Positions 10,553-33,488 of a stretch of 41,073 bases of DNA are shown here, one piece after another. A model generated the notes under the pieces. That model made no database searches, was not told the origin of the DNA, and worked only from the letters and a program-made list of their open reading frames with translations. The stretch is from Methanomassiliicoccales archaeon (GTDB lineage: Archaea > Thermoplasmatota > Thermoplasmata > RBG-16-68-12 > SOIM01), in assembly GCA_030593885.1 (NCBI GenBank), contig JAUVGH010000018.1, positions 1-41,073 of the forward strand, read 5' to 3'. The first letter of the stretch is position 1, and each line of letters starts with the position of its first letter. Made by a program: the position numbers and the translations under genes.

Positions 10553-11568
10553 GAAGTCTCACTCTCCTCTTCCTTACCAAGCTTCCTCACCATGAAGAGC
10601 TGATACAGAACATACGCGAAAGCTATCCACACACCTGCAACCACCAGAATGATCACGATGACTATGGATGGGGGAACGCCGCCAATCAACAAGGGTTCGG
10701 GTTCAACGTCGCCTTCGGACATGATCTCAACAGTAGCGTTCGAAGGTGCGTGTTCGGAGAATCCATCAAAGGAAGCTTCGAGGAGAAAGACCCCCCTTTC
10801 GTACGAAGTGTCTGAATGAAATGCATATCCTTGGCCATCCGTAGTGTTGATGCCGAGTGTGATCTTGCCAAAAGTCGTGATCCTTGAGAATGTGATGTCA
10901 TGTCCGATCAGGGGATTTCCGCTCGCGTCAGTCAGCCGGGCAGACATGTTGAACTCCTCATCCACCTGGACCTCGGATGGAGCATCCAGTGAAATCTCGG
11001 TCTCAAGAAGGGGAGGACCAGCCACCGAGAAAGTGAGGATTCCGCCCTCCTCAAACCAGCTGACGGAGTTCCCACCATGATGCACTCGGGCGGTCAGATT
11101 GTAGGTACCACTCCGGAACGGTGAAGTCATTACCCACTCGAATGTCACTTCTGATCCCAGCCCAGGTGAGGTCTTCTTGACATAGTTGTTCTGGTTACCT
11201 ACTGGATCGGTCACTATACGCCACCCGTCCTCCGAGGGTTGGTCGCCATTACCGCCAGTCATAGACCTAAGCAGGAAGACCCCAATGGTCATATTATTGG
11301 TGAGAACCGTTTCGGTAACGTTCACGTTAACAGTGACTTCTTGGTTGACGTCTGGTTCAAGCGTTGAGGCCCACAAGGAAATGGTCCCATCCCCTCTCTG
11401 AGCTTCCCCTATGTGGCAGATACATCCACCATAGCTGAACTTGCCATCCCCAACACCCCCGCCAAAACCCTGAATGTCACCAGGTGCGAAGATGAGGAGG
11501 CCAGTGACTACTAAGAAGGAAGCGATGAATAAAGCCTTAATTGTCTGCGACTTTGGATGATTCGTCAA
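10549..11568 (-). CDS. Secreted, membrane-anchored choice-of-anchor V/Reeler-like protein with atypical CXCH motif
   Basis: TTG start at 11568 behind GGAGG (track ORF starts 11622). SYGGCICHIGEAQRGDGTISLWAS..., QPSEDGWRIVTD, YNLTARVHHGGNS; C-terminal TM. Confidence 0.75.
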   Translation of the reverse strand: MTNHPKSQTIKALFIASFLVVTGLLIFAPGDIQGFGGGVGDGKFSYGGCICHIGEAQRGDGTISLWASTLEPDVNQEVTVNVNVTETVLTNNMTIGVFLLRSMTGGNGDQPSEDGWRIVTDPVGNQNNYVKKTSPGLGSEVTFEWVMTSPFRSGTYNLTARVHHGGNSVSWFEEGGILTFSVAGPPLLETEISLDAPSEVQVDEEFNMSARLTDASGNPLIGHDITFSRITTFGKITLGINTTDGQGYAFHSDTSYERGVFLLEASFDGFSEHAPSNATVEIMSEGDVEPEPLLIGGVPPSIVIVIILVVAGVWIAFAYVLYQLFMVRKLGKEEESETS

Positions 11569-13231
11569 CCGATTCCTCCATGATTGCCTCTTCTTGCTGC
11601 TGATCTTCGTCCGACTTCTCATTCTCCTTTGGAGGCTTTGACCTCATGAAATAGACGATGGCTATGAACACAACGATAATGATCAGGGCGGCCAACAAAA
11701 TCACTAAGTCCAATCCATCCTGAACTGGCTCGGTGGAGATGGTCTCCAAATCCGTTATCTCTCCAGGCAAAACCTCGACGTTCTCGACAGACCCAATGGT
11801 CGAGCCATCTTTGGTGATCTTGAAGTTGTATGTTCCAGGAGCGATATCGGCGGTGAAGCTACCGTCACTTCCAGTTACCGCTATTTGCTCATCATTCAAC
11901 TGGATTGAAGCGCCGATAACGTCATTTCCGTCCTTGTCAACAACCTTCCCTATCACTTCTCCCGGAGTGAGCATATCAATTATCTCCCGTGCACTCTCGT
12001 TCGCGAACTCCAAGAGGGCAAGGGCGTACGGAAGGTTATGTGCTCCTTGACTCCGGTCAGCTATCACGAAGCTGTAAGAGTAGTTGGCGTCATCATAGAG
12101 ATCCTGGGCCTTGATTAAGATTTGACTGCTGAAATGATACTGATGGGCATTGTCGATCGCGCTCTTGGCCAGGGTCAGATTCGACTTGGTCGAATCCAGC
12201 CTCTCGCGTGTTATGTCCTGCCAAGAATCGACTGCACTGGAAGCCTGATCGACTGTAATGGGAAATGTCCGGGAATCCGCCGCATGGCATGACACGCAAG
12301 CCTCCATCTTTGGTCTGAATGTATGTCCAGTGATGTTCTGAGGTGGACCGGTCGAGTACATATGGCAATCTGAACAGAGAGCATCTCTCATGAATTCCAG
12401 CCTGGGGACCTTTGACTCATCAATCCCACTGATGCCGGTTCTCATAGAAGATTGTGGGTGTCTGATGACCTCGCCGGGCAAGGGCGAACCCACGGTGTGA
12501 CAAGTGTTGCATATCTCCTCAATTGGCTTTCTCAGCTGATATTCATTGGCGGATCCATGGGGATCATGGCAAACGGAACAAACTATAGGCTGGGGATCTG
12601 TTACTGGTCGCTCTGCCGTCCCTCCCTCGAAGTTCTCAACTATCGCAACTTGAGCAACGTGACAACTCTGGCAGCTCGGGTCGGTGGCGACTTGTCCTCC
12701 CTGTGCAGTGAGAGACAGAGCATGGGATGAGTTCAGCCATTCGTCATAATAGGGATGATAGGTCTTCGATTGACCGTCGAACTGAGCAGTCCTGTGACAA
12801 GTGCTACACACAAGGGCATCATAGTCCACTGCATCAGATGAATCTAATAGTGACATCGGGTCGGGTCCGTGGCATGACTCACAGGTCACATTCTTCAGAT
12901 ATTCAGGTTGGTCGGTGGCGGGATCGAAGCCGTTGTGTTCTGGCTCATTGGCTCCAGTAGTGTGGCATGTCTCGCACCATTCCTTCTTCTCGGCCGATGT
13001 GTTCAGGGTGTCCCAGGCGCTCGCGTGTGGGGATGTGATCCAAGAATCATAGATATCAACGTGGCATCCAGGTTGCTGACAGTATTGAGGCCCCTGGTAA
13101 TCTCCGGGAGCCCGGGTTCCATGTGAGTCGGCGCTCAAATCAGAGGTCGCAAAAGACATCAAAACAACGATGAAGATGAAGACGACTGAGAGAAGTAGAA
13201 TCTTAAAAATGCGATTCCTTTTAGTGTCCAA
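11537..13231 (-). CDS. Membrane-anchored nonaheme c-type cytochrome with carboxypeptidase-regulatory-like domain
   Basis: Motifs CQQPGCH (CX4CH), CETCH, CESCH, CSTCH, CQSCH, CSVCH, CNTCH, CSDCH, CVSCH; then GKVVDKDGNDVIGASIQLNDEQIAVTGSDGSFTADIAPGTYNFKI and a TM. TTG start at 13231 with GGAGGAGG RBS aligns with paralog at 19071 (track ORF starts 13264). Confidence 0.9.
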   Translation of the reverse strand: MDTKRNRIFKILLLSVVFIFIVVLMSFATSDLSADSHGTRAPGDYQGPQYCQQPGCHVDIYDSWITSPHASAWDTLNTSAEKKEWCETCHTTGANEPEHNGFDPATDQPEYLKNVTCESCHGPDPMSLLDSSDAVDYDALVCSTCHRTAQFDGQSKTYHPYYDEWLNSSHALSLTAQGGQVATDPSCQSCHVAQVAIVENFEGGTAERPVTDPQPIVCSVCHDPHGSANEYQLRKPIEEICNTCHTVGSPLPGEVIRHPQSSMRTGISGIDESKVPRLEFMRDALCSDCHMYSTGPPQNITGHTFRPKMEACVSCHAADSRTFPITVDQASSAVDSWQDITRERLDSTKSNLTLAKSAIDNAHQYHFSSQILIKAQDLYDDANYSYSFVIADRSQGAHNLPYALALLEFANESAREIIDMLTPGEVIGKVVDKDGNDVIGASIQLNDEQIAVTGSDGSFTADIAPGTYNFKITKDGSTIGSVENVEVLPGEITDLETISTEPVQDGLDLVILLAALIIIVVFIAIVYFMRSKPPKENEKSDEDQQQEEAIMEESVDESSKVADN

Positions 13232-13267
13232 TCTTCCTCCTCCGAAGGGTCGTATCGACAACATAGA

Positions 13268-13298
13268 ACGACGACAGTCTATATCTATCTTGCGAAAA
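13268..13298 (-). promoter_or_regulatory. Putative promoter of 13231 cytochrome gene, conserved with 19111-19141
   Basis: Plus-strand ACGACGACAgtcTATATCTAtCTTgCgaAAA; the same block with identical spacing lies upstream of the 19071 gene; contains a minus-strand TATA-like TAGATATA. Confidence 0.55.
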
Positions 13299-13365
13299 AC
13301 GACAATCTCAGATTAACGAGTGAATCCTCCTTTCCTGCCTCAAAAACCCTCCGAACCAGGACACC

Positions 13366-13680
13366 TCACTGTTTCTCGCTTGCCTCCTCGCCAATCTCCT
13401 CTACTTGATCGGACGAGGACGCCTCTTCAGCCGGCTTCTCTCCGATCAGACGGACCATGTATCCGTCCTTTGTCCTCCAGATTTCTGCGGGAGTGAACGC
13501 CCTCTCGAAGTAGTAGACCAGCTGGGCTATGAGTACAAATGAGACGCCGATAAGGAAAGCGGATTCGGCATAAGCCTCTTCAAGGTAGGACATTGTCATG
13601 AAATAGAAAACGATAGGAAGGAACGCGAAAGTTGCCAGCAGGGATACTATGGCAGCATGTCTCACAGTCGACTCATCCAT
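13366..13680 (-). CDS. Small membrane protein, putative accessory subunit of cyt b complex (family B)
   Basis: Start at MDESTVRH (13680), overlapping the upstream gene. ESAFLIGVSFVLIAQLVYYFERAFTPAEIW resembles ESVFLFGIGFIVLAQVMFAYRIFRYPDSW in 24341..24577. Confidence 0.7.
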   Translation of the reverse strand: MDESTVRHAAIVSLLATFAFLPIVFYFMTMSYLEEAYAESAFLIGVSFVLIAQLVYYFERAFTPAEIWRTKDGYMVRLIGEKPAEEASSSDQVEEIGEEASEKQ

Positions 13681-13963
13681 TCTGATCACCCAAGAAGCTC
13701 TCAAGGAACTTGTTCCTGCGCTTAATCCTGCCCTGCGATGTGTCCAGAACATAAATGATGGCCAGAAGCACCACGAATGACAACACGAGCAAGAAGCCGA
13801 ACACAAAGAACTCGATGAGCCAAATTACGTCGAATCCTTTCGCCAATGCCTGCATTGCATAGAGGACTTGGCTTCCGGAGAACCCGCCAAGTGATACGAA
13901 GAAGATGACCGCGAATAGGGGCTTGGATTTCTTGAGCCTTGATTCCTTCTTCTCCTCGTTCAT
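13673..13963 (-). CDS. Small membrane protein, putative accessory subunit of cyt b complex (family A)
   Basis: Two-TM protein in the cyt b operon; LAKGFDVIWLIEFFVFGFLLVLSFVVLLAIIYVLD...KRRNKFLE resembles LLKGFDILLLILFLVSTYLTLVLMYSIVSIFYNVDKLKGRQKKRLRFLE in 24574..24867. Confidence 0.7.
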   Translation of the reverse strand: MNEEKKESRLKKSKPLFAVIFFVSLGGFSGSQVLYAMQALAKGFDVIWLIEFFVFGFLLVLSFVVLLAIIYVLDTSQGRIKRRNKFLESFLGDQNG

Positions 13964-13971: not shown

Positions 13972-14433
13972 CTAGTCCACCATACCCATTCCTTTTGCAG
14001 TGTAATACAGGAAAATGATAACGATGAGTATGACGGCAATTCTCAATACCCAGTCCCCGACTTTGTACTTGGACAGGAACCTCTCAGCAAATGGCACACT
14101 GATGAACCCGACCGCGAACAGGCCGATAAGAAGAGTGACTATCCAGGCATCCATCATCTTCAGGAGTTCAAAGACGGCGAGGAAGTACCATTCAGGCAGG
14201 ATCTGTGGAGGGGTGTTGAAGGGGTCGGCGGGATATTCCAGCCTCTGGAGCTCTGTTTCTCCCAGCCCAGACTCGAATATCTGTGAGGGGTGAAGGAGCG
14301 AGGCCAGAATGAGAATGAGGCCGAAGAACAGCAATAGGATCGAGAGTTCCTCTAAGGCGAATCCGGGCCAGAAGGGCCTCGATCTCAGCGTTCTTCTCTT
14401 GGTTTTCTCTTTCTTCGCGACCATTTCTCTCAT
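13972..14433 (-). CDS. Cytochrome b C-terminal domain / subunit IV (PetD-like)
   Basis: YPADPFNTPPQILPEWYFLAVFELLKMMD contains PEWY; follows cyt b gene with short overlap (start 14433). Confidence 0.88.
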   Translation of the reverse strand: MREMVAKKEKTKRRTLRSRPFWPGFALEELSILLLFFGLILILASLLHPSQIFESGLGETELQRLEYPADPFNTPPQILPEWYFLAVFELLKMMDAWIVTLLIGLFAVGFISVPFAERFLSKYKVGDWVLRIAVILIVIIFLYYTAKGMGMVD

Positions 14434-14434
14434 C

Positions 14435-15163
14435 TCATAATGGATCCGCAATCCCGTGCTTTCTGACCAGATAGAAGTGGGTCAAGAGGAGCATCATGAT
14501 GCCCAATGGGAATATCAGTATGTGGAATCCGTAGAATCTGGTAAGAGTGGAGGGTCCGATCTCGCCCCCGCCAATGAACACCTCCCTGGCAAACTGAGTT
14601 ATCGGAAGTAAGAAGGAGCCTATGATGGGCATTCCGCTGAGAGCCGTAATCATGTTGGTGCCCACAGTCGCGGCCCAATAGGCGCGCTGGTCCCAAGGGA
14701 GAATGTATCCGGTGAATGCAATCCCAATCGTCATGAAGAAGAGGGTCACACCGACCATCCAGTTGAGCTCTCTTGGCTTTCTGTATGCCTTGGTGAAGTA
14801 GACCCTCATGGCGTGAAGGACCAGCGTGATCACCATTATGTTGGCCGTCCACCGGTGGATGTTCCTGATGATGTACCCGAAGGGGACCGCCTGTTCGATG
14901 TACCTGATGCTGTCCCATGCGTGGTCAACAGACGGAACGTAATAAGTTGCGAGGAAGGTCCCGCTCATGACTTGAACTATGAAGGCGACGAGGGTCACGC
15001 CGCCCAGACACCACAACGGATTTCGAGCGTGCCTGGGGACCCCTTTCATGACCTGATGTTCCCAGATCTCTTTCAGACCAGCGCTGGTAAGAATCCAGTT
15101 GACTAGGCGTTGGAAGAGCTTCATAATGCTGAATGTCTGGATCTTTCCTAGTATTCCCACCAT
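14435..15163 (-). CDS. Cytochrome b N-terminal domain (cyt b6-like)
   Basis: Heme-ligand pairs: IHRWTANIMVITLVLHAMRV and FHILIFPLGIMMLLLTHFYL; LPWDQRAYWA. Confidence 0.92.
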   Translation of the reverse strand: MVGILGKIQTFSIMKLFQRLVNWILTSAGLKEIWEHQVMKGVPRHARNPLWCLGGVTLVAFIVQVMSGTFLATYYVPSVDHAWDSIRYIEQAVPFGYIIRNIHRWTANIMVITLVLHAMRVYFTKAYRKPRELNWMVGVTLFFMTIGIAFTGYILPWDQRAYWAATVGTNMITALSGMPIIGSFLLPITQFAREVFIGGGEIGPSTLTRFYGFHILIFPLGIMMLLLTHFYLVRKHGIADPL

Positions 15164-15164: not shown

Positions 15165-15764
15165 TCACCGTGGTATCAACTTCACTTTCTTTCCACCTTC
15201 ATTCACTTCTATGTCGAATTGCTGCAGCGGGGACGGGGGAGGACCGGCGAGTACGCCCCCATTATTGTTGGCATTGAAAATCGCGTCATGGCACAGGCAA
15301 TACCAGACCTTCTGGTAGCTCTTGGAGCTCACGACCACATCATCCCTGAACTCAACCAGACAGCCCTCATGAGTGCACTTCCTGGACGATGCGAAGAGAA
15401 CTCCCTGGGCGTCCCTGGAGATTATTCCCGGAAGGAGCTCGTTCCTACCGTGGAATATGCCCTCGAACAAGAAGATGAAACTGCCAGTCCTTGTAATGAT
15501 GTCGATTATCATGGACTCTGGGATGAACTTCTGATCGAACACCAGGAAGCCATCGTCATCGAGCTTCGGGAGAGAACCTTTCCAATCAGACATGAAGCCC
15601 TCGGTCGGACCGAAGTAGCTGAAGAGGTAAGCGACCTCGGCCACCGCAATGCCCAGACCTGCCGCGATAGCTCCTTGCGCCACTCTTGACAAGAACTCCC
15701 TTCTAGTTATCCCGTTCTTTTCGTCTTGCAGCTCTCGACACCTCCTTTTTGACCTTTCTATCAA
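15165..15764 (-). CDS. Rieske [2Fe-2S] protein
   Basis: Tat-like N-terminus TRREFLSRVAQGAIAAGLGIAVAEVAYLF; CTHEGC and CLCHDA cluster-binding motifs. Exact start uncertain. Confidence 0.9.
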   Translation of the reverse strand: MIERSKRRCRELQDEKNGITRREFLSRVAQGAIAAGLGIAVAEVAYLFSYFGPTEGFMSDWKGSLPKLDDDGFLVFDQKFIPESMIIDIITRTGSFIFLFEGIFHGRNELLPGIISRDAQGVLFASSRKCTHEGCLVEFRDDVVVSSKSYQKVWYCLCHDAIFNANNNGGVLAGPPPSPLQQFDIEVNEGGKKVKLIPR

Positions 15765-16365
15765 TCAATGTGAATGCGGCCCACATCACGAATCCGACCG
15801 CGAGAATGCCGGAGCCGAGAAGATGCGCGTTTGATGAAACGTCCAGACCTGGGAACTCCACGCTCGATGGGTACTCGACCTTGATGTCCTTCTCAACAGT
15901 GTTCCATCCATCACCGGACGGTTCTCCACTGTTGTCAGAGGAAACAGCAGCCACCGTCATCTTCAGATGAACAGCGTATCTGGGAGGAGTGAACTCCACG
16001 ACGAATGTGTTGGTCTCTCCCACCCTGGTCACAGAATTGGGCGCGACTTCAAACAAGAGTTTTCCTTGAAGATCCCTGCTGACACCGTCTGGATCCTCGA
16101 TCAGCACGAAGTAACCGTAAGTTTCAGACGGACCGCCAATGACGGTGATGACGTATGTAGCCAGAATGTTGGTGTGAACAGTGTCTGGCCCGTCCACAAT
16201 GATGTTGACACTGGAATCCTGCACTCCGTGACAGGGACTCTCCGCGTCGCCACAACTCTCAATGTCCACATTCTGATAGCTGTCGCCCAGCGGAGCAGCG
16301 AGAAGTACTACCAGGACTGATGCGAGGCAAGTGAACAGGAAGAGAAGGCGCCTAATCCTCCTCAT
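15703..16365 (-). CDS. Secreted Reeler/choice-of-anchor-like protein with CX6CH motif and C-terminal TM
   Basis: Start at MRRIRRLLFLFTCLASVLVVLLAAP (16365). ESCGDAESPCHG; EPSGDGWNTVEK matches the xPSxxGW motif of neighbouring paralogs. Confidence 0.65.
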   Translation of the reverse strand: MRRIRRLLFLFTCLASVLVVLLAAPLGDSYQNVDIESCGDAESPCHGVQDSSVNIIVDGPDTVHTNILATYVITVIGGPSETYGYFVLIEDPDGVSRDLQGKLLFEVAPNSVTRVGETNTFVVEFTPPRYAVHLKMTVAAVSSDNSGEPSGDGWNTVEKDIKVEYPSSVEFPGLDVSSNAHLLGSGILAVGFVMWAAFTLIDRKVKKEVSRAARRKERDN

Positions 16366-17359
16366 ATTCGTCCTCCTCCCTTCTAAGTAGGCCGATGACC
16401 GCCACCGAGGCGATGAACACGAAAAGCGCGGCCAGCAAGAGGCCAAGTATCTCAAACCGGGGGACTGGCTCAGGCTCGGGCTCAATCACCAAGAATGAAA
16501 AGTCAAGTTCATTGTTCGATTCATCACTCTCAACTATAACGTTCTGAGGATCTATGATGGCATTGAGTGTGAAGTTGCCACCAACCGTAGAGGTCCAAGT
16601 CGCTGTCGCATTGCGAATCCCTTTGCCGGTGACTGTCAGATTGGCAACTTCGGCAACGACCACACCGTCAATCTCGAATCCAACTTTGATATCGTCCAAA
16701 TCAGCAGTGTAATCGTTGAATAGTGTGGCATAAAGAACAATCTGCTCACCTTCCTCTGACTCCGAGGCGCAGAAAGTGTCCATCAGGACCAAGTCTGGCA
16801 GAACGGTTACATCGGGCTCAACCACGAACGTGAGCCCCGTGGAATCCTCGACCCAATATGCCGTACTTCCTCCCCCGTGGTGTACCCTCGCAAATAGGCT
16901 GTAGGTTCCAGAGGAGAAGGGTGCGCGAAGGTCCCACCGGAAGGATGCCACATCTCCGGGACCGCTCACGGTGGCTTGCACATAGTTGTGCTTGTTGCTG
17001 TTGGGATCCGTGGTTATCCTCCAACCGTCAGTTGATGGGACATCGGTGTCACCTGCGGTGAGGGCCCTCAAGAGGAAGACGCCGATCATGTTATTGGATG
17101 AGAGTGTCCAGGATGTGACATTGATGTAGACGGTGACCGTCTCATCCACGAGCACCGAAAGGCTTGAGGCCCACATTTCGACGGTTGCGTTCCCTTCTTT
17201 CGGAACACCGAAATGACAGTCACCAACAGCACAACCACCATATCCAATGCTGGAATCGTCAGCGCCGCTTGGAAAGCCGAAGGTCAGTGATGACAAGCAG
17301 ATTGAGGCGACGAGGGCTAGTGTCGCTATCAGAACTTGGCTCCGGCGTTCCTTCAACAT
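16352..17359 (-). CDS. Secreted choice-of-anchor V/Reeler-like protein with CX4CH motif, CARDB-like domain and TM anchor
   Basis: IGYGGCAVGDCHFGVPKEGNATVEMWAS, VPSTDGWRITTD, YSLFARVHHGGGS; second domain PDLVLMDTFCASESEEGEQIVLYATLFNDYTADL... Confidence 0.75.
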   Translation of the reverse strand: MLKERRSQVLIATLALVASICLSSLTFGFPSGADDSSIGYGGCAVGDCHFGVPKEGNATVEMWASSLSVLVDETVTVYINVTSWTLSSNNMIGVFLLRALTAGDTDVPSTDGWRITTDPNSNKHNYVQATVSGPGDVASFRWDLRAPFSSGTYSLFARVHHGGGSTAYWVEDSTGLTFVVEPDVTVLPDLVLMDTFCASESEEGEQIVLYATLFNDYTADLDDIKVGFEIDGVVVAEVANLTVTGKGIRNATATWTSTVGGNFTLNAIIDPQNVIVESDESNNELDFSFLVIEPEPEPVPRFEILGLLLAALFVFIASVAVIGLLRREEDEYEED

Positions 17360-17361: not shown

Positions 17362-19071
17362 CTACTTCATCTCGGGTTCTTTCTCGACTAGGGATTCATC
17401 AACTCTATCCTCATCGGTCACGGGAGACTCCTTCTCGTCCTCAGGTTCTTCCGAGGGTTCATCCCTTTCTTCCTTCTTGCCCGCCGATCTCACGAAGAGA
17501 AGTACGAGAAGTATCGCTAGAACAATTATGACTACAAGCAAAGGCAGGGTCCAGTCGATCGGCTCGGAGAAGCTTATGACGCTCTCACCAGCATTGGTCG
17601 TGGACCCGCCAACAATGGAGACTCCACTCACGGTCCCAACGTGTTCCCCGTCCTTGACCAGGTCGAAATCATAGGTTCCAGATGCGTATTCAAATGAGTA
17701 CGAACCATCTGCACCTGAAATGGCCAGATCCTTTCCGCTTCGTCTGACAACCACGCCTGAAACCGTATCGTCATCAGAGTCCTTGATGACACCGGTGACG
17801 AGTCCGGGCTGCAGAGCGTTCTTTACCATATCGATTCGGTCGGAAGCGAAGTTGAGCAAGGCCATGGCATACTGTGGATTGTGAGCACCCTGACTCTTGT
17901 CCGCAGTGACGAAACCGTAGGAATAATTGGCATCCTCATAATTGTCCATGGCAAGATCGATGGTGGTCAGGTCGAAACCGTAACGGGTGGCGTTCTCGAT
18001 CATAGAATATGCGATGCCGAGGTCGAAGGCGACCTGACCTCGCAGAGTTGAGGTACTGGACTGGTATGCGTTGACGGCCGTCAGAGCCTGATCAACGGAA
18101 AGATCGAATGTCCTGGGATTCCCGTTGTGGCAGTCCGCGCATGCCTCCGGTTTGAAGCTGAATGAGTGTCCAGTGATGTTCTGAGGAGGACCGGATGAAT
18201 ACAGGTGGCAGTCGGCACACAGAACGTCAGCCATGAAATCCTTCTTTGGAACGTCGGTGGGTTTGATGCCGCTGGTACCCTCTCTCATGGAAGATTGGGG
18301 GTGTCTGATCTCTTCGCCAGGCACAGTTGTTCCAGAATGACAGGTGGCGCACAGATCTGCCGGGTCCAGACGCAATTGGCTCTGATATGGTGAACCGTGT
18401 GGATCGTGGCACACGGCGCATGTTATTGGCTGGGGATCGGTCACAGGGAGTTGGGCAGTTCCGCCCTCGATGGTCTCCGCGATCGCGATCTGGGCAACGT
18501 GGCACCCTTGACAATCAGGATCTGTGGCAACGATACCTCCTGCGGCAGTGAGTGATATGGCGTGTTTTGAGTTCACCCATTCGTCGTAATACGGATGATA
18601 CGTCCTTGTGGTGTTGGCAATCTCGGACGTGTGGCATGTCCCGCATAGAGAGGGACCGTAGTCCACTGCATCAGATGAATCTGATAGCGACATGGGATCA
18701 GGACCGTGGCATGACTCACATGTCACATTCTTCAGGTATTCAGGTTCGTCGGTGGCGGGATCGAAGCCGTTGTGTTCTGGCTTATTGGCTCCGGTAGTGT
18801 GGCAGGTCTCGCACCAGTCCTTCTTCTCGGCCGATGTGTTCAGGGTGTCCCAGGCGCTCGCATGTGGGGATGTGATCCATGAACTGTACTGATCTGAATG
18901 ACAACCGGGCAATTCCTGACAGGTCACTGGACCTTGATAGTCGCCTGCGGCCCGCGTTTCTGGTGTATCCGCCTTCATATCAGTGGATACAAGACTGATT
19001 ATGGCGAAGAAAAACACTACAAGGGAAGCCGCGAATACCAGTACACCTAAGTCTCTCTTGGTGAGTTTCAT
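17362..19071 (-). CDS. Membrane-anchored nonaheme c-type cytochrome with carboxypeptidase-regulatory-like domain
   Basis: CQELPGCH (CX5CH), CETCH, CESCH, CGTCH, CQGCH, CAVCH, CATCH, CADCH, CADCH; GVVVRRSGKDLAISGADGSYSFEYASGTYDFDL; TM and acidic tail. Confidence 0.9.
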   Translation of the reverse strand: MKLTKRDLGVLVFAASLVVFFFAIISLVSTDMKADTPETRAAGDYQGPVTCQELPGCHSDQYSSWITSPHASAWDTLNTSAEKKDWCETCHTTGANKPEHNGFDPATDEPEYLKNVTCESCHGPDPMSLSDSSDAVDYGPSLCGTCHTSEIANTTRTYHPYYDEWVNSKHAISLTAAGGIVATDPDCQGCHVAQIAIAETIEGGTAQLPVTDPQPITCAVCHDPHGSPYQSQLRLDPADLCATCHSGTTVPGEEIRHPQSSMREGTSGIKPTDVPKKDFMADVLCADCHLYSSGPPQNITGHSFSFKPEACADCHNGNPRTFDLSVDQALTAVNAYQSSTSTLRGQVAFDLGIAYSMIENATRYGFDLTTIDLAMDNYEDANYSYGFVTADKSQGAHNPQYAMALLNFASDRIDMVKNALQPGLVTGVIKDSDDDTVSGVVVRRSGKDLAISGADGSYSFEYASGTYDFDLVKDGEHVGTVSGVSIVGGSTTNAGESVISFSEPIDWTLPLLVVIIVLAILLVLLFVRSAGKKEERDEPSEEPEDEKESPVTDEDRVDESLVEKEPEMK

Positions 19072-24577: not shown

Positions 24578-24867
24578 CTCTCTCCGCCCTCCCTGTCAAC
24601 GTGGATCTCCAGGAACCTCAGTCTCTTCTTCTGCCGTCCTTTGAGCTTGTCGACATTATAGAATATCGATACGATGGAGTACATGAGAACCAGTGTGAGA
24701 TACGTGGACACCAAGAACAGAATGAGGAGGAGGATGTCGAACCCTTTCAGGAGGTTGGAGAAGGAATATGTCATGAACCACAGGGTGGCACCCGAGAGCG
24801 ATATCAGTAGAAGGGTGTAGACCAGGATCCTTGCACCTGGAGATCTCGCTTTCGTTTTGGCTTTCAT
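24574..24867 (-). CDS. Small membrane protein, paralog of 13673..13963 (family A)
   Basis: See 13673..13963; ATGA-type overlaps with neighbours. Confidence 0.68.
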   Translation of the reverse strand: MKAKTKARSPGARILVYTLLLISLSGATLWFMTYSFSNLLKGFDILLLILFLVSTYLTLVLMYSIVSIFYNVDKLKGRQKKRLRFLEIHVDREGGER

Positions 24868-25241
24868 AAGAACCCCATGACCGTGAATGCTGCCCAGAAT
24901 GCCATCAGAGCCAGTATGATCGCGAAGAAGATCAGCCTCTTGCGTGGATGTTTTTCCTCTGACTTGTCGAGAAATGGCATAGCCAAGAGGAGGATGACGA
25001 CTGCAAAGACGACCAGAGCGCCGAACAATGGGGAGACGAGGTCGATCATCTCCAGAACTCCCACGAAGAATATGCTGGGGAATCCAAAGGGCTCGGGTCT
25101 GCGGAGGGCGGCGGCTATCAAGATGATGCCAGTAATCAAGAATACCACTCCAATCTCTTCCATTATGTGATTGGGAAGGAAAGGTCTGGAACGTTCTTCG
25201 GATCCCGCCTCGGATTCTTTCTCTGGTTCTATTTCAGTCAC
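24864..25241 (-). CDS. Cyt b subunit IV-like protein with degenerate Qo motif
   Basis: GTG start at 25241 overlaps the cyt b stop (track ORF starts 25334). FGFPSIFFVGVLEMIDLVSPLFGALVVFAVVILLLAMPFLDKS aligns with the PEWY region of 13972..14433 but reads PSIF. Confidence 0.72.
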   Translation of the reverse strand: MTEIEPEKESEAGSEERSRPFLPNHIMEEIGVVFLITGIILIAAALRRPEPFGFPSIFFVGVLEMIDLVSPLFGALVVFAVVILLLAMPFLDKSEEKHPRKRLIFFAIILALMAFWAAFTVMGFL

Positions 25242-25942
25242 AGTGGACCACTTATCCCGTGCTTTCTGATAAGGTAGAAATGGACAAGGAGGAACAGAAT
25301 AATCGCAATTGGGAGTACGGTAACATGCATCCAATAGGATCCGGTGAGAGCTTCCCCGACAGTATCAGATGCCCAATTGAAGACACCGCCCACATGGGGA
25401 ATACCGCGAAGCCATCCGAAGGCCCCGGACATCGAAGTGATGGCGAATTCGGACCTCTCATCCATGGGGAGCACATATCCCGTGAGAACGAACAGGAACG
25501 TGAAGACGAGCAGGATCACCCCACCCATCCAGGTCAGTTCTCTGGGGTTCTTGTATGAACCAGTGATGAAGACCCTTAGAACATGGAGAAGCACGGCTAT
25601 GACCATTACATTCGCCGCCCAACTGTGGATGCTCTTTGCGTAAAAACCAAAAGGTAGCTCAGTGGAGATTATCTGGATGCTCCGTTGGGCCCCACCCTCG
25701 GATGGTTCGTAGTAGTTCGCCAGGAAGAACCCGGTCAAGGCCAGAATCAGGAATGCGACAAGAGTGACGCCTCCCAGACAATACGCGGGATTGAGGGCGT
25801 GCTTGGGGACGGTCTTACCCTCGGTCTCTTCCATGAAACGCTCAAGGCCACTTCTGGCGATTATCCAATCTCTTGATTTCGTGAACATCTTGCCTAGCGG
25901 GAGCAGGGCTTTGGATAGGGCACCAGTTGACTCCTTATCCAT
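25238..25942 (-). CDS. Cytochrome b N-terminal domain (cyt b6-like), second copy
   Basis: IHSWAANVMVIAVLLHVLRV and MHVTVLPIAIILFLLVHFYL ligand pairs; start at MDKESTG (25942) with GGAGG upstream. Confidence 0.9.
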   Translation of the reverse strand: MDKESTGALSKALLPLGKMFTKSRDWIIARSGLERFMEETEGKTVPKHALNPAYCLGGVTLVAFLILALTGFFLANYYEPSEGGAQRSIQIISTELPFGFYAKSIHSWAANVMVIAVLLHVLRVFITGSYKNPRELTWMGGVILLVFTFLFVLTGYVLPMDERSEFAITSMSGAFGWLRGIPHVGGVFNWASDTVGEALTGSYWMHVTVLPIAIILFLLVHFYLIRKHGISGPL

Positions 25943-25946
25943 GGTC

Positions 25947-26879
25947 TTACGCCTCACTTCGCCTCCTTGAAAGAGCTAGACCTAAGAAAATGGCAATAGA
26001 GGCCGCAAGCGCGATTGCACTGAATAGAACCACATCGAAGATTACCTCTTCGTGAGGAGTTGCGGATGCCGCATGCATGGGCTCATGACATTCCAGGCAC
26101 TTGGGGTACGAATAGCCGTGATACTCGCCGTGGCACTCGTCACAGGTTTTGGTCACCGTCTCGTGTTCCCCGTGACATTCCGAGCAGTTGCCTTCACTGT
26201 GCCCACCATCCTGGAGCTTTGTGAACTCTGCCGGGTGGCAGTCCTGGCAGACATCATTGCTGAGATTGTGCTTGAAGGTGGCCTCGATGGGATCATGGCA
26301 CTCGAGACACTCAGGATACACATATCCTCCGACTGTCCAGTCGTCATGCTTGGTGCCATGGCAGGAGTCGCACTGATTGGAGGGCGCGGTATGATTCTGG
26401 TGACAATTAGTGCAGTCCTGCCAACTGTGGGAGCCCATGTCCAGACGAGCGGTTTCATTGGTGTGACAGGTCGCACATTGCTCGTTGGTTATCTCATGTT
26501 TCCAGTTGGTTGCATGAGGATCATGACAATCAAGACATGATGGGTATTCGAAGTCGTGCATGTTGCCGTGGCAGTAATCACATTCTGTTGTGATGTTTAA
26601 CTCTGACTGGCTTTCTGGATCGTGGCAGGTCTCGCAGGCGGCCCATGAGTGCTTTCCACCCTCCACGGCTTGTGTAATGGTGAAGTGGCACGAATCACAA
26701 TCATCTGCCCTTGTTCCGTAAGAACCGTGCTGAATGACAATATCGGTCTTCTCCTGAGCTGATTCGGAATTCGTTGCGGATGCCTGGAGCAGAACGCCAA
26801 CAATCAAGATAAGGACGATGATGAAAATCGGCTTCCGCAGTGCAACGGTTCTTTTCGAACCCGCTGGAAGTTTGTACAT
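25947..26879 (-). CDS. Dodecaheme c-type cytochrome with C-terminal TM anchor
   Basis: Twelve CXXCH motifs: CDSCH CETCH CDYCH CLDCH / CATCH CTNCH CDSCH CLECH / CQDCH CSECH CDECH CLECH. Confidence 0.93.
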   Translation of the reverse strand: MYKLPAGSKRTVALRKPIFIIVLILIVGVLLQASATNSESAQEKTDIVIQHGSYGTRADDCDSCHFTITQAVEGGKHSWAACETCHDPESQSELNITTECDYCHGNMHDFEYPSCLDCHDPHATNWKHEITNEQCATCHTNETARLDMGSHSWQDCTNCHQNHTAPSNQCDSCHGTKHDDWTVGGYVYPECLECHDPIEATFKHNLSNDVCQDCHPAEFTKLQDGGHSEGNCSECHGEHETVTKTCDECHGEYHGYSYPKCLECHEPMHAASATPHEEVIFDVVLFSAIALAASIAIFLGLALSRRRSEA

Positions 26880-27127: not shown

Positions 27128-28489
27128 TCAGCCCTTCCCGTCGATCTCCTTCATCACGTCAACCGCACTCTTCTTGTACTTCTCCAAGAGGTTCTCATAG
27201 ACATCTTCTGGAATCTTCCCCTCCTCGAAGTCTGTCTTCAACCTCTGGATCGCCATCAACATGGTCTGCTTCTTCTGTTCCAGTTCGGAGAGGGGTTCTA
27301 CGACCTCTTCTGTATCCTCCGCCCCTTCAGATGTCTCCTTCTCCTCTCTGGCGGACTTCTTCTGGTAGAACAGATACCCGATTAGACTCCCGATAACGAT
27401 AATGGTTATGATCAAAGCCAAAAGGGCGTAGTCGAACTCGTTCTTCCAGCCCACTGTGAAGCTGATGGTGTCATTGGAGGAGAGGTCGACCCCGGTCATT
27501 GCATACCACTCTCTCTGATGCGAATCGCTCCATTGGGAGAAAAGGATATTCAGATTGTCTCCGACGGTCATCTTGTCGTCCTCGAGAATGAACGCGAATA
27601 TCTCGATGAAGTCGTTGGGGTATATGAGCTCCTTCCGGTACAGGTAGTCCGCGGATGGATCGTCGGCACCATCAATAGGAATGGCATAACCTAGCTGTAT
27701 CTCGATCTTGTAAGTGGGGACCTGAATGTGCAGAATGATCTCCTTGCTCTCATTTGACCCAATCGAGGTCTCGTTGACTACCCCATTCTCTATCAGGATA
27801 GCGGTCCAACCTTCAGGGAGCCCAGTAATCTCAAAATCGACCGTGTCGTTGAACGGGGAGTTGTTGGTTATGTTGATCGATTGGATGAGGCCCAACCTCT
27901 CGGCCATTCCGCTCGCATCCACGGGTATGGTCGCCACGACACCCAGCTGTTCAGCATTGTCGGTCAGGTGCAGACCATCCCCCGTGACAACTGGAAAATC
28001 ACCGAAGGTCTGTGCTTGACCTACCGTCACATTGAGAAAGAGACTATCTGAATAAGATGAGTTCTGGGCAGTCCCCTCAATCACGATGGTCGCCTCCTGG
28101 CCGAAGTATGACATGAAAGTGTCTGGCTCGAACGGTTGACCATGAACGATGTTATCTATACCGGTCGGGAGCATGTCGAAGCAGAGCATCACACCCGCCG
28201 CGTCCATCCTGCATGCCATGTTGGGGGCATTGCCGCAACACTTGGACCTGACAATGGCATTGTCCGGAAGCCAGGAGAAGATGGTCCCATTGAACGTGTC
28301 TGTCCCTGTGTTGTTGAAGAAGATGAACTCTGTAACATCCAGGGTCTTGCGATCCTCCTCCTGGATGATGTCGATCCATCTTTCATCCACCACAAGACCG
28401 TTCGTTGGCATCGGATCATCCGCGCTTATGTGAATGGGGATGGTCGTCAATATCAGCAGTGCAATGAACAGTATAGCTCCAGTCCTCAT
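27128..28489 (-). CDS. Secreted/membrane protein with C-terminal CcmI-like helical segment, ccmF-linked
   Basis: Start overlaps the ccmF stop. Signal peptide, Cys-containing ectodomain (KCCGNAPNMACRMDAAGVMLCF), TM, then LEQKKQTMLMAIQRLKTDFEEGKIPEDVYENLLEKYKK. Confidence 0.7.
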   Translation of the reverse strand: MRTGAILFIALLILTTIPIHISADDPMPTNGLVVDERWIDIIQEEDRKTLDVTEFIFFNNTGTDTFNGTIFSWLPDNAIVRSKCCGNAPNMACRMDAAGVMLCFDMLPTGIDNIVHGQPFEPDTFMSYFGQEATIVIEGTAQNSSYSDSLFLNVTVGQAQTFGDFPVVTGDGLHLTDNAEQLGVVATIPVDASGMAERLGLIQSINITNNSPFNDTVDFEITGLPEGWTAILIENGVVNETSIGSNESKEIILHIQVPTYKIEIQLGYAIPIDGADDPSADYLYRKELIYPNDFIEIFAFILEDDKMTVGDNLNILFSQWSDSHQREWYAMTGVDLSSNDTISFTVGWKNEFDYALLALIITIIVIGSLIGYLFYQKKSAREEKETSEGAEDTEEVVEPLSELEQKKQTMLMAIQRLKTDFEEGKIPEDVYENLLEKYKKSAVDVMKEIDGKG

Positions 28490-31269
28490 CCTTCCTCCTC
28501 CAGTTTCATCAGCTCCTCTTCCAGCAACTTCTCGTAGTCCTTCTCGGCGACCGGGACCCCTTCTTCAACCTTGATTTCTGCGACCTTGGCCTCCTCAACG
28601 ACCTCCTCCTTGGCCTTGATCCTTTCCTTCCTCACAGGCCTGCGCTGAATCGGGAGATAGTCGACAAAGACCAGAAGGAATATGCCGAAGGACCCCATCC
28701 ACAGACCACCCCACAGGGCGCTCATGAGGGGCAGCGTCTTGACTTCGAACGAAACACCGCCGACAGTGTCCGAAGTGAACATATTGCCAGTGTTCTCGTG
28801 CGCCCAGATCCACCCGTCAACGACAGTGTAGAAGGCTCGGGGTATGAAGTATATGTCCTCGTAGTAGGTGTTCTCCACATAAACGTCAAGCATGTAGTGG
28901 GCATCGTTCGGATTCGCAGGGACCATCCACCATAGGTGGAAAGTGGCTTCGCCAATGATAGAGCCGTCCCGACTGATCTCCACGATAGCAATGAGGTCCT
29001 CATATCGTCCGTCGCCGTCGACGTCGGTTCCGTGTGAATCTACAAGCCTCAGTTCGTACCCTTGGAAATCATCGGAAGACCCTGCCAGAAGGGGTTCTGA
29101 GTAAGCATCGAAGTCCTTCTCAACCATCAGATACGTGCTCCCAGCATAGCCGATAAGCAGCAATACGATGCCGAGGTGGATGAGCTGAGGACTGATCCCG
29201 CCGAGGACCGATCTTACAGACTGGACATTGAGGCGGGCCTTGGAGAAAGCAGGTAGAGACGTCAGTATCAACAACAACGCGATCACGCTGAGAACGCTCC
29301 CAGCGAAAAAGTAACCGAGGGACAGAATCCCGAGGATGGCCCCGATGATGCATATCAGAGGACTTCGTCCCCTTAGGCAGAAGAGTCCGCCGATCAAGGC
29401 CCCTGCCGAAACAAGGAATGCCAGGGCCCCGATCAACAGATCTGGCTTCACTGGCGGAGATAGGCCGATTATCCTGGTCAAGCTGGACCAGAACAACATA
29501 CCGATGATGCCGGCAATGACGAGGAACAGTCCAGCAATCTGCAGGCTTTTCTTTCCGGTCTTCCTGGTGCTGCCCGTGGCCATCATGAATATCCTGTAGA
29601 TGGCGGCGCACAGCGCACCGATGAGTACCACGATGTACGCACCGAAGACATTGCCGGAGAAGACGGCGTAGTAGGCCAGAAGCGTCGCGATGATCAAAGC
29701 GACTATGAGGTAGACGGAGTTCTGTCTACCAAGGTATCTCCACGCCAGACAAACGGTAAGCGTGATCATGAGCGGTATTACGATCAGCGGCAATCTGCTC
29801 TCAAAGACCTCGGGTTGAAGCCCCTCAGAACCCAGGATCATGAGCAGGAGGGTTGTTACGAACCAGATGGTGAAGATAGAGACGGAGACCAACATCGTGG
29901 TCTTGTCGTTTATCACGCTGGACAACGTTACCGGTTCGTTGTCCTCCTCCCTCTCTTGAGAGGTGTATATTATCCATAGAATAGGAATCCCGATAATCAA
30001 AAGGGCCAGTATGGTCAGCCCGATGCCTTTGTTGCCGAACCCTACCAAATCTGAAACACGAAGGCCGAGGGAAGTGAAGGAGGCAACGTCCACGATAGCG
30101 AACAGCAGGAGAACGGCTAAAGAGATCATGTACAGGCTCGGAAACATGCCGGCCGCTCCCTTCAGTGAGCCTTCTCTCTTCCTGATGTTGTAGAACATCC
30201 ACATGAAGAGGACTCCAGCAACAAGCAGAACTGCCAGCATCATCATCATGAAGAAGCCAGCACCCAAGTTCCCCTCAAGTATCGCGACCAGCCTGTCACC
30301 CGGATCGGGTATATCGGACCCGAGACCCGTGAAGGCGTGCAACGGGGACGCCACAAACCCGCTCCTGGTCTCAAATGTCGCAAAGATGATGAGAACGAAT
30401 GTGACGACCGCCAATAACGGCGCCAGGAAATTGTACTGCCTCCGCTTCCGAAAATACGATTGAGTATGTACAAAGCCGGTGAGCGCGATCCATGGGATCA
30501 GATTGGCGACCTCGACCGGGTCCCAACCCCAGTACAGCCCCCATCCGAGAACGGTATAGGCCCACAGGGCACCGATGCCGATACCCAGAGAAAGGAACAG
30601 CCAGCTCAATCTGCTCCACTGCAATGATGAGTCGGTCCACTTCCTGTCACCGGTGATGAGGTAGGCAAGGGCCGAGGCCAACGGGAGCGTCATGAAGGCG
30701 TATGCTGCGAATTCCACTGGTGGATGAGCGATCATCAGGGGAGTCAAGAGCAGCCGGTTGATTCCTTTACCGTCTGGGAAGCTGACAAGGTCGAGCGTGG
30801 TGGTTGCCTTGAAGACATCCGTGTTGATAAGGAGCACCAAGAAGGCAATGAGGATGATCATTGAGATCACCCTTATCCAGTCGTACAGAAGAATGGCCTT
30901 ATCGTCCACTCCCGACTTCTTCGCTCTCCGGCCCTGAATGGCCTCCTCGACGATGATGGACAGGGAGATCAACCAGACCCAGAGCACGATGGTCCCTTCC
31001 TCTCCGGCCCAAAGGCCAGTGAGTTTGTAGTACCAGATATAGTCGGTGGAGGTGTGCCCGTGAACGTAATGGATACCCAAGTTAGGCTCCAAGAAGTAAT
31101 AGACGAGAAGGAAGAAAGTGGTTGTTGTGGTTATGAAACACAGGAATACCAGGAATCTGGACACATTCCGGTGCCTTCTGTCCTTTGTGTAGATGTGGGA
31201 CAGTGACAATGCCACTGAAGCGGTGGCTAGGACCAGAGATAGGTAGACTAATACTGTGCCAATTTCCAC
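28486..31269 (-). CDS. ccmF: Cytochrome c-type biogenesis protein CcmF (heme lyase subunit)
   Basis: WGWDPVEVANLIPWIALTGFVHTQ tryptophan-rich motif, AHPPVEFAAYAFMTLPLASALAYL, ~15 TM architecture. Confidence 0.93.
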   Translation of the reverse strand: MEIGTVLVYLSLVLATASVALSLSHIYTKDRRHRNVSRFLVFLCFITTTTTFFLLVYYFLEPNLGIHYVHGHTSTDYIWYYKLTGLWAGEEGTIVLWVWLISLSIIVEEAIQGRRAKKSGVDDKAILLYDWIRVISMIILIAFLVLLINTDVFKATTTLDLVSFPDGKGINRLLLTPLMIAHPPVEFAAYAFMTLPLASALAYLITGDRKWTDSSLQWSRLSWLFLSLGIGIGALWAYTVLGWGLYWGWDPVEVANLIPWIALTGFVHTQSYFRKRRQYNFLAPLLAVVTFVLIIFATFETRSGFVASPLHAFTGLGSDIPDPGDRLVAILEGNLGAGFFMMMMLAVLLVAGVLFMWMFYNIRKREGSLKGAAGMFPSLYMISLAVLLLFAIVDVASFTSLGLRVSDLVGFGNKGIGLTILALLIIGIPILWIIYTSQEREEDNEPVTLSSVINDKTTMLVSVSIFTIWFVTTLLLMILGSEGLQPEVFESRLPLIVIPLMITLTVCLAWRYLGRQNSVYLIVALIIATLLAYYAVFSGNVFGAYIVVLIGALCAAIYRIFMMATGSTRKTGKKSLQIAGLFLVIAGIIGMLFWSSLTRIIGLSPPVKPDLLIGALAFLVSAGALIGGLFCLRGRSPLICIIGAILGILSLGYFFAGSVLSVIALLLILTSLPAFSKARLNVQSVRSVLGGISPQLIHLGIVLLLIGYAGSTYLMVEKDFDAYSEPLLAGSSDDFQGYELRLVDSHGTDVDGDGRYEDLIAIVEISRDGSIIGEATFHLWWMVPANPNDAHYMLDVYVENTYYEDIYFIPRAFYTVVDGWIWAHENTGNMFTSDTVGGVSFEVKTLPLMSALWGGLWMGSFGIFLLVFVDYLPIQRRPVRKERIKAKEEVVEEAKVAEIKVEEGVPVAEKDYEKLLEEELMKLEEEG

Positions 31270-31300
31270 TCTAGAACCTCGAATCGGCTAATGCCAGCGG

Positions 31301-31323
31301 AGAATAAAAACTTTGTTTATTCT
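31301..31323. repeat. Perfect 8-bp inverted repeat between multiheme gene stop and ccmF
   Basis: AGAATAAA-AACTTTG-TTTATTCT, overlapping the stop codon of the 31317 gene. Confidence 0.4.
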
Positions 31324-33488
31324 TCGCTTTCCATCTCAGGCTCGGGCTCTGGCTCAGGGGCCATCTCTTCTTCCATTGGTTCCTCTTCCATTGATGGACC
31401 GCCCCTCTTCTTCATAGCCACAACCGCGATAATTACAACAACGACTATTATCACGATAATGAGGAGCAGATAGAGCATAAGATTGTCTTCTTCACCATCA
31501 TCATCATCATCTGGTGGTGGTGGTGCTTCGCCGATCGTTATGGTCCCGAGATCAGTGGTGTCCCCGGCCGTAACAGTGCCATCGAAGGTTCCTTCCTCCA
31601 CACTTTCTATCAGAACGGTGAAGGTGCGAGCACCTGCAGCGAGGTAGACCTCGAACTCTCCTTCGGCATCAGTAAGTACGTACCAGTCACCCACAGTGAT
31701 GTTGGCATTTGCTATGGGATTACCTTCGTAGTCAACAATAGTACCTTTGAGGGTTCCATTGACGAGCAGGGCTAGAAGTTCGTTCGCCTTTTCGTTGGCA
31801 AATTCGAGAAGATCCTCAGCGTACATGTAGTTGTGATACTGGCCCATGCCTGAATCAACGACACCAAATGCGAAGTGTGCTTCGTTTGCCAGATCCTCGG
31901 CTTCTGTCATCGTAGCAGCCGGGAAGTCCTGATGTTCAGCCTCTTCGAGTGCTGCCACCATGGCAGTGATGTTAGTCTCAGCGCCCGCCTTGAGCGGCAG
32001 AATCGTTGCTTCCCAAGAATCAATGCCAGATTGGGCTTGAACATCGGTTAGAGCAAAGCCCGTGGTACCGTCATGACAGGAAGACGTACATGAGTTGGGC
32101 ACTCCAACTGCAGCGGTCTGATCCGGCATGATGACCTTGAATGTGTGGCTTGATATGTCGCCTGGCAGTGCGCTCTTGGCCGTTCCAATCATGTGGCAGT
32201 CCGTGCAGGCGACCGATCCTCCCATCCATGGCATTGGGGTGCCTGGCAGGTTCAGAATCGTCTCTCCTGCAATAATCTCCATCTGCGCATGATGAGGTTC
32301 GTGGTCAATCTCCTGCACACCTATTGTGTGGCAGGCGACGCAGAGCTCATCCTGTGGAAGTCTCAGCTGGTGATCGTTTCCTGCGTCGTCGTGTGCAGAG
32401 TGACAAGCGGCGCATGTCTGCTTCCAAGTGACGTTACCAGCATCAGGTGCTGTCGGACCTCCAAGAGACTCAATGAAACCTTCTGTGCTCCTGCAGCTCA
32501 TGCAACCATCATTCTGTGCATAACTGGGCGCGATCTCCGCGTGTCCGTTGCTCTCAGTGGTCAACCAGTCTCTGTATTGCTGGTGATGTTGCTTTGAGGA
32601 ATCGTGCTCGTCACCCCAGGTGCCTTCACCGGGAACATAGAAATCGGAAAAGGTGTCCCCAGGCATGTACCATCCTTCAACATCGTTCCACGGATAGCCA
32701 AGGGGCTCAGGTGCACCGGCGAGCGTCCCATTGCTCGTTCCTCTAATATGACACGATCCACAAATCTGAGCATCTACAGATTTCCAAATGAAATCGGGAT
32801 TGCCCAAGTGGTCGCTACCGGGACCGTGGCAGGCTTCGCAACCTGCGCCCAATTCAGACCAAGTGGCAGTCCACTCTTCTGTGGGGGCATTGTATGTGAC
32901 GTCAGTTCCAGTCGTATGGCAGCCAGCGCAACCTCTGTCCCATGAGTCCTTTGTGGCACTGGGCCAATCTCTGATGTCCCCATTTGTGTCAAACCACCGC
33001 TCCAGGTGGTACGCAACCCATTCCTGTGTGTCCTCATTCCACTGGATGGGTAGGAAGTAAAGGCTTGCATTTATCTGTGTCAGATACCTCTGCTTCCAGA
33101 ACGATCCAACGGTCTGGTCCACTGGGAACGTGTTGCCGTTCATAGTAACAGTGAATACTCCACCAGTACCATCCAGATCTATGATCACATCTGGGATACT
33201 GTTCGCAGTGTCGTTCAGGGTCGGGTCGATCGTGAAGTCCCCAGTGACAGTAGCCACATCAGGGTCCTGAATCATCTTGGGGTGCAAGCTGTTGGACCAG
33301 TCAGTGTGCTTTGTAGGATGACAGCCCATGCAAGAGTCAGAACCTACGTATGTTGCTGAATCCATGTAGCTGTTGTCAGTCGACCCTCTTGTTCCTTCAT
33401 CATCGCCGATGGTGCCAAATCCGAAAACCAAAACACCGACCGCGACGCCGATAGCAATCATTGCAATTGCGACAGAGATCCTCTTCAT
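31317..33488 (-). CDS. Large c554-like multiheme cytochrome c with carboxypeptidase-regulatory-like domain and TM anchor
   Basis: CMGCH, CAGCH, CEACH, CGSCH, CMSCR (degenerate), CAACH, CVACH, CTDCH, CTSSCH (CX3CH); YVGSDSCMGCHPTKHTDWSNSLHP; GTIVDYEGNPIANANITVGDWYVLTDAEGEFEVYLAAG. Confidence 0.9.
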   Translation of the reverse strand: MKRISVAIAMIAIGVAVGVLVFGFGTIGDDEGTRGSTDNSYMDSATYVGSDSCMGCHPTKHTDWSNSLHPKMIQDPDVATVTGDFTIDPTLNDTANSIPDVIIDLDGTGGVFTVTMNGNTFPVDQTVGSFWKQRYLTQINASLYFLPIQWNEDTQEWVAYHLERWFDTNGDIRDWPSATKDSWDRGCAGCHTTGTDVTYNAPTEEWTATWSELGAGCEACHGPGSDHLGNPDFIWKSVDAQICGSCHIRGTSNGTLAGAPEPLGYPWNDVEGWYMPGDTFSDFYVPGEGTWGDEHDSSKQHHQQYRDWLTTESNGHAEIAPSYAQNDGCMSCRSTEGFIESLGGPTAPDAGNVTWKQTCAACHSAHDDAGNDHQLRLPQDELCVACHTIGVQEIDHEPHHAQMEIIAGETILNLPGTPMPWMGGSVACTDCHMIGTAKSALPGDISSHTFKVIMPDQTAAVGVPNSCTSSCHDGTTGFALTDVQAQSGIDSWEATILPLKAGAETNITAMVAALEEAEHQDFPAATMTEAEDLANEAHFAFGVVDSGMGQYHNYMYAEDLLEFANEKANELLALLVNGTLKGTIVDYEGNPIANANITVGDWYVLTDAEGEFEVYLAAGARTFTVLIESVEEGTFDGTVTAGDTTDLGTITIGEAPPPPDDDDDGEEDNLMLYLLLIIVIIVVVVIIAVVAMKKRGGPSMEEEPMEEEMAPEPEPEPEMESEE

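Follow-up and report, generated by a model that had tools for sequence, protein, structure and literature searches.

OcwA-family multiheme cytochromes and quinone-type membrane modules in a gene island of a Methanomassiliicoccales archaeon

We analyzed a 41,073 nucleotide stretch of DNA from a Methanomassiliicoccales archaeon (contig JAUVGH010000018.1 of assembly GCA_030593885.1), referred to here as the window, which is a complete contig from a metagenome-assembled genome (MAG) of 2.14 Mb and 86% completeness. The best PDB match of the thermosome is 1a6d, from Thermoplasma acidophilum, which makes a Thermoplasmata-like archaeon likely; a scan of named genomes gave relatives among bacteria only. 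The window carries an island of genes for large multiheme cytochromes, quinone-type membrane modules, exported proteins of the choice_anch_V kind and cytochrome c maturation. Draft genomes (G-numbers) served for comparison, 37 from the same order and 390 drawn from the phylum. Among those cited by number, G001 and G002 are congeners of the window genome, G036 belongs to another genus of the same family, and G007 and G010 belong to another family. All genes named in an initial annotation of the window are open reading frames of the minus strand at the coordinates given there, and Pfam supports the families it had proposed (cytochromes, NrfD, 4Fe-4S protein, Rieske protein, N- and C-terminal parts of cytochrome b).

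Five large cytochromes are encoded, like all features below unless stated otherwise, on the minus strand: CytE (31317-33488), Cyt9D (22668-24254), Cyt9C (20915-22504), Cyt9B (17362-19071) and Cyt9A (11537-13264). Cyt9A, Cyt9B, Cyt9C and Cyt9D each possess eight CXXCH motifs plus one CX4CH, CX5CH, CX4CH or CX3CH motif, respectively, and are predicted to be nonahemes. CytE combines seven CXXCH motifs and one CX3CH motif with a ninth site, CXXCR, at the position of heme 5. Its initial description as an 8-heme cytochrome holds for the eight canonical sites and misses the additional CXXCR/K position of a putative active-site heme. Composition-preserving shuffles of each protein yielded 0.01-0.14 CXXCH motifs per protein, placing the observed heme motifs far above chance. 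The cytochromes show N-terminal signal or transmembrane (TM) segments as well as TM anchors at the C-terminus. CytE has such a C-terminal anchor and, between its first two hemes, an additional segment, the beta-domain insert. The proposed paralogy of the cytochromes was borne out by identities to copy A of 54, 48, 40 and 31%.

Pfam returned Cytochrome_C554 and C552 matches among the cytochromes. A profile built from the five proteins matched PDB entry 6i5b with an E-value of 9.1e-60 over chain residues 13-496, i.e. the whole heme domain, followed by 6qvm (1e-30), NrfA and octaheme nitrite reductases. CytE alone matched 6i5b with an E-value of 6.5e-53 (phmmer). We take 6i5b to be OcwA of Thermincola potens, an identification supported by a shift of 29 positions from chain to published numbering that is identical at both OcwA His-His pairs (hand count); 6qvm, a more distant relative, is probably OmhA of Carboxydothermus. 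Judged by sequence, all five proteins are members of the OcwA/NrfA/c554 superfamily with OcwA as the best solved relative, a family that had been missed initially. Assignment to an MtrC-type class was considered due to an above-cut-off Pfam match to MtrC/MtrF domain II-IV, but was rejected because the PDB profile search was far better for OcwA. OcwA is a characterized cell-surface terminal reductase in which hemes 1-4 are c554-like and hemes 5-9 NrfA-like, and in which the open hemes 2 and 5 lie under His-His pairs 281/282 and 380/381 (PMC6703420). The nine sites of the island cytochromes, homologous over the full heme domain, follow the same order of c554-like and NrfA-like hemes.

Motifs were mapped onto OcwA by hand on the profile alignment. 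The 'YHPYYDEW' and 'HPQS' motifs, listed initially as marks of paralogy, align with the two distal-pocket His-His motifs of OcwA. CytE retains both His-His pairs (QHHQQY and PHHAQ), Cyt9D retains the heme-2 pair only, and Cyt9A, Cyt9B and Cyt9C retain neither. At heme 5, Cyt9A-D carry CXXCH. CytE of the window, of G001 and of G036 carries CXXCR, that of G002 CXXCK, and further orthologues have histidine at this site. A second clade alternates likewise, with lysine in G007 and G010 and arginine in G285 and G071. Among the sequences aligned, CXXC(K/R) is confined to proteins that retain the heme-5 His-His pair. Because the pairs and the heme-5 motif are kept or lost in this manner, we infer that CytE is the catalytic member of the set, with Cyt9A-D presumably acting as conduits.

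Like OcwA, CytE thus has the beta-domain insert and a His-His pocket at each of hemes 2 and 5. Unlike OcwA, the island cytochromes are archaeal, membrane-anchored, equipped with a CarboxypepD_reg-type domain and encoded together with quinone modules; moreover, they comprise four tandem paralogues without one or both His-His pairs and without the beta domain, and heme 5 of CytE has a CXXC(R/K) motif. A search of open-licence papers for CXXCR as a heme site returned nothing on such a cytochrome. The CytE homologue of G007 is broken over three frames (L123:7896-9825), reflecting either sequencing error or decay.

Three quinone-type membrane modules, termed blocks A, B and D, lie beside the cytochromes, in agreement with the initial proposal that duplicated cytochrome ectodomains accompany such modules. 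Block B is headed by Cyt9B, which occupies the place expected for cytochrome f/c1. It further comprises a Rieske protein with a Tat-type signal (15165-15764; PF00355), a cytochrome b6-type subunit (14435-15163; Pfam, PDB cytochrome b6 E 2e-52), subunit IV (13972-14451; Pfam) and two small 2-TM subunits (13673-13963 and 13366-13689). The Rieske motifs CTHxGC and CxCH (CLCH in the window), the PEWY motif of the aligned subunit IV and the four b-heme histidines are all present, making a Q-cycle plausible for this block. Close homologues of the Rieske protein were found within the order only in G001 and G006.

Block D begins with a dodecaheme cytochrome (25947-26879) that has 12 CXXCH motifs, gave no informative match in a sequence search against the PDB, and has orthologues with 11-12 motifs in G001, G002, G007, G010 and G036. 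It is followed by a cytochrome b6-type subunit (25238-25957; PF00033, PDB cytochrome b6 E 1e-49), a subunit-IV-like protein (24864-25334; PF00032) and two small 2-TM subunits, one at 24574-24867 (orthologues in G001, G002, G010 and G036) and one at 24341-24577 (orthologues in G001 and G002). The best match of both island cytochromes b is cytochrome b6, and two His pairs as well as the Cys of YCLGG (the heme ci position) are aligned in both. A Rieske gene is absent from block D, and the block B Rieske protein was not found in the block D carriers G002, G036, G007 and G010. In all five homologues aligned, the PEWY motif of subunit IV is replaced by PSIF, PNIF, PHVF or PHIF, and approximately 25 residues preceding it are missing. 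These features had escaped the initial annotation. Because Rieske is lacking and PEWY is lost in the homologues, block D may represent a quinol module of another type, with the dodecaheme as its electron acceptor.

The two modules share the split into b6 and subunit IV, the bis-His pairs and the YCLGG-aligned Cys with cytochrome b6f. In contrast to b6f, they have a nonaheme or dodecaheme instead of cytochrome f, and block D additionally lacks Rieske and PEWY. Rieske and cytochrome b genes, partly with a split subunit IV, are likewise found beside multiheme genes in Methanoperedens (PMC4683180), Coatesbacteria (L055) and Zixibacteria (L062). The island differs from these clusters in that the unit includes an OcwA-family nonaheme and two choice_anch_V proteins and that another b6 module, devoid of Rieske and PEWY, is located nearby.

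In block A, Cyt9A is adjacent to a 4Fe-4S electron-transfer subunit with a Tat-type signal (9785-10552; PF13247) and an NrfD-type quinone-site membrane subunit (8389-9825; PF03916, 129 bits). Modules of NrfD, 4Fe-4S and multiheme proteins are known from the Nrf, Qrc, ACIII and Geobacter Cbc types. Block A shows the same combination, but differs by its OcwA-family cytochrome and a choice_anch_V-type protein.

Four exported CXnCH proteins, ReelA (10549-11526), ReelB2 (15703-16485), ReelB1 (16352-17359) and ReelC (19815-20816), had been labelled 'Reeler-like'. They are indeed united by mutual similarity (ReelA is 38% identical to ReelB1), but the Reeler label was rejected since none of the four matched Pfam Reeler at E<=0.1 and the fitting profile is NCBIfam choice_anch_V (NF041895, curated cut-off 42 bits), an assignment in keeping with an exported beta-sandwich domain. 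ReelB2 passes this cut-off with 54.0 bits, ReelC (38.7 bits) and ReelB1 (23.5 bits) remain below it, and ReelA gave no NF041895 match and is of choice_anch_V type by paralogy. ReelC is predicted to be a tandem Ig-like protein and has a CX3CH motif and a conserved HHG; its AF2 model is a beta-sandwich (pLDDT 71.9), for which a fold search returned generic Ig-like folds only, with low TM-scores. The neighboring gene encodes a five-TM (5-TM) membrane protein (TM4C; 19172-19825) with an H-x6-H motif conserved in the alignment of its first helix. A fold search of its AF2 model (pLDDT 75.6) against the PDB gave nothing significant, the best hit being STEAP (E 0.73, TM 0.42-0.45), and sequence searches of the 5-TM and Reel proteins against the PDB gave no informative match. 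Without a Pfam Reeler match and a significant fold match of the 5-TM partner, eukaryotic Reeler/cytochrome b561 ferric reductases are a loose analogy.

Relatives of the 5-TM protein occur in 38 of the 390 phylum genomes. In all six nonaheme-free loci read (L144-L149), a choice_anch_V-type gene lies directly beside the 5-TM gene, recognized by profile in five loci and by a weak BLAST match only in L148. Because the pair exists phylum-wide without nonahemes, it represents an older module, and the primary partner of choice_anch_V is probably the 5-TM protein rather than a cytochrome. The initially proposed pairing of cytochrome and Reel protein as a unit is not supported in the form first given. 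No choice_anch_V or 5-TM homologues were found near bacterial OcwA relatives in 80 loci. At L146, L147 and L149, another large exported CXCH-bearing protein precedes the pair.

The CXnCH spacing varies from n = 1 to 6 across Reel copies, with CXCH in ReelA, CX4CH in ReelB1 and CX6CH in ReelB2, which lacks HHG. Of 14 genomes with the pair that were tested, 13 gave a Cytochrom_C_asm match; in the one that did not, G382 (99% complete), the motif is short of one Cys. G333 possesses Ccm, yet its TM-linked Reel protein has neither Cys-His nor HHG. From this pattern, heme attachment seems plausible for the CX3CH and CX4CH copies and doubtful for the CXCH of ReelA.

Nonaheme relatives (E 1e-20) were present in 7 of the 37 genomes of the order and in 7 of the 390 genomes drawn from the phylum. 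The initial annotation had named loss of synteny in relatives as the finding that would speak against it. The proposal passed this check: gene order is complete in G001 and partially kept in G002, G006, G007, G010 and G287. G002 has CytE, CcmF, the dodecaheme block, Cyt9D, ReelC and the TM gene; on a contiguous contig, it lacks TatC, the entire stretch from Cyt9B to NrfD, and Cyt9C, which is missing between Cyt9D and ReelC. CytE, CcmF and the dodecaheme block were found in G036 within the stretch read, and G007 and G010 carry the dodecaheme block and a divergently oriented Cyt9D-ReelC-TM set. In G006, one contig bears orthologues of Cyt9D, Cyt9C, ReelC, TM and Cyt9B, and a second one ReelB2-Rieske-b6-IV-small-small. 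Orthologues of Cyt9D are thus found in G001, G002, G006, G007 and G010, and those of Cyt9C in G001 and G006.

Gene order in these relatives delimits blocks of CcmF with CytE; of dodecaheme, b6 and subunit IV; of nonaheme, choice_anch_V and 5-TM protein; of Rieske, b6 and PEWY-bearing subunit IV with their own nonaheme and two choice_anch_V proteins; and of nonaheme, choice_anch_V, Fe-S protein and NrfD. The boundaries drawn initially were right in part: the dodecaheme block extends as far as 24341, and the nonahemes at 22668 and 20915 go with the genes at 19815 and 19172. The description as four variations on one design proved too tidy, as the nonahemes do not form part of the dodecaheme/b6 block. 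In the tree, the duplications giving rise to the B, C and D nonahemes precede the split of the two families, and A groups weakly with B (83/55). The N-terminal heme segment of Cyt9B in G001 is closer to copy A than that of Cyt9B in the window, which points to gene conversion among the copies.

Maturation genes are interleaved with or adjoin the cytochrome genes. CytE is adjoined by a CcmF/NrfE-type heme lyase (28486-31269; Cytochrom_C_asm, NCBIfam nrfE 153 bits and under its cut-off), next to which a membrane-anchored companion protein without a Pfam family (27128-28489) is kept in G001, G002, G036, G007 and G010. CcmA, CcmB, CcmC and CcmE, the rest of the system, lie divergently from CytE on the plus strand (33605-36524). 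All matches in the MAG to Cytochrom_C_asm (2, CcmF being one), Cytochrome_C554 (7) and Paired_CXXCH (6) fall within the window, so that the island is the entire detectable multiheme inventory of this incomplete genome. No heme-copper oxidase was found in the MAG.

Taken together, these data make it probable that the island encodes a modular, quinol-oxidizing system for anaerobic electron transfer to the extracellular (pseudoperiplasmic) side. Blocks A (NrfD/4Fe-4S), B (Rieske/b6/IV with intact PEWY) and D would oxidize quinol, possibly as physical complexes, with the b6-type block D handing electrons to the dodecaheme without Rieske or PEWY. The anchored nonahemes heading blocks A and B and the dodecaheme heading block D would all serve as ectodomain wires, and CytE or some other acceptor beyond the membrane would receive the electrons from them. 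The choice_anch_V/5-TM pair might add a one-heme membrane module or a docking unit. CytE would be the most likely terminal reductase because it combines both OcwA His-His pockets with CXXC(K/R) at the NrfA-type catalytic heme; candidate substrates are metal oxides, shuttles or N-oxyanions.

Several points weigh against this interpretation. A CXCH motif such as that of ReelA is unlikely to hold heme c, and any heme site of the 5-TM protein is putative. Separate subunits could serve different chains instead of one system. Furthermore, statements that a gene is absent from the MAG or occurs only in the island are provisional given its 86% completeness.

The window also encodes a type II DMSO-reductase-like molybdoenzyme operon (6-5994, plus strand), consisting of an alpha fragment truncated by the contig end, FeS beta, EB_dh gamma, a NarJ-type chaperone and a membrane protein. 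This enzyme may be a further electron sink. Alternatively, the island might chiefly feed it in the style of archaeal nitrate respiration, with nonahemes as pseudoperiplasmic shuttles and no true extracellular transfer. The operon flanks the island together with TatC (5991-6986; PF00902), which is also found in the G001 island, near the G006 nonahemes and at G287, and with MobB at 7589 and MobA at 36604, which bracket the island. For Methanoperedens, it has been suggested that a Rieske/cytochrome b cluster with pentahemes supplies a Nar-like enzyme (PMC4683180). However, similarity searches with the window genes revealed no molybdoenzyme next to the island of G001 or G002, G001 retains the whole cytochrome cluster, and CytE carries reductase-like features of its own, which leaves this alternative unlikely.

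A role of CytE and its CXXCK relatives as nonaheme nitrite or hydroxylamine reductases of the nitrogen cycle, making the island one for nitrite ammonification or detoxification, appears somewhat less likely still. The heme equivalent to the catalytic one of NrfA has a CXXCK motif in G002 and in the paralogues of G007 and G010, the adjoining CcmF is of the NrfE type, and OcwA itself slowly reduces nitrite and reacts with hydroxylamine (PMC6703420). The window, G001 and G036 nevertheless have arginine and other orthologues histidine, and four extra conduit-type nonahemes exceed the needs of an Nrf system. That the modules run inward, carrying electrons from outside (Fe(II) or a partner cell) into the quinone pool, is improbable: OcwA-like wires and b6-type modules could run in reverse and block D has no obvious Q-cycle, but the intact Rieske/PEWY block B and the lack of a detected terminal oxidase favor outward anaerobic respiration.

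We put forward, tentatively and as a combination that would rather not be expected to hold in full, that the active site of CytE-type cytochromes has a covalent CXXCR heme, matured by Ccm and interchangeable with the NrfA-type CXXCK heme, that choice_anch_V/5-TM is an undescribed phylum-wide archaeal membrane electron-transfer module recruited by the island, and that a b6 module works without Rieske and PEWY via the dodecaheme. In the open-licence literature searched, we found neither a one-to-one match to the arrangement, as had been surmised initially, nor a described system combining all these parts.

OcwA-family surface cytochromes, characterized so far in a Gram-positive bacterium, are now placed in an archaeal lineage, where the island joins them with probable quinone-side donors and maturation genes into what could be a compact, self-contained means of electron export. 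It offers cases for asking by what mechanism a b6 module can operate when Rieske and PEWY are missing, whether a heme bound at CXXCR can be catalytic, and how minor alterations at hemes 2 and 5 may turn catalytic multiheme enzymes into conduits and vice versa. OcwA-family cytochromes also lie in other settings. In G285, one is found with Ccm genes near a 24-CXXCH cytochrome (L126:12685-14730), and at two Gemmatimonadota loci (L013, L019) OcwA-family nonahemes occur in the vicinity of cytochrome b and of multiheme proteins of very large size (16-21 CXXCH).

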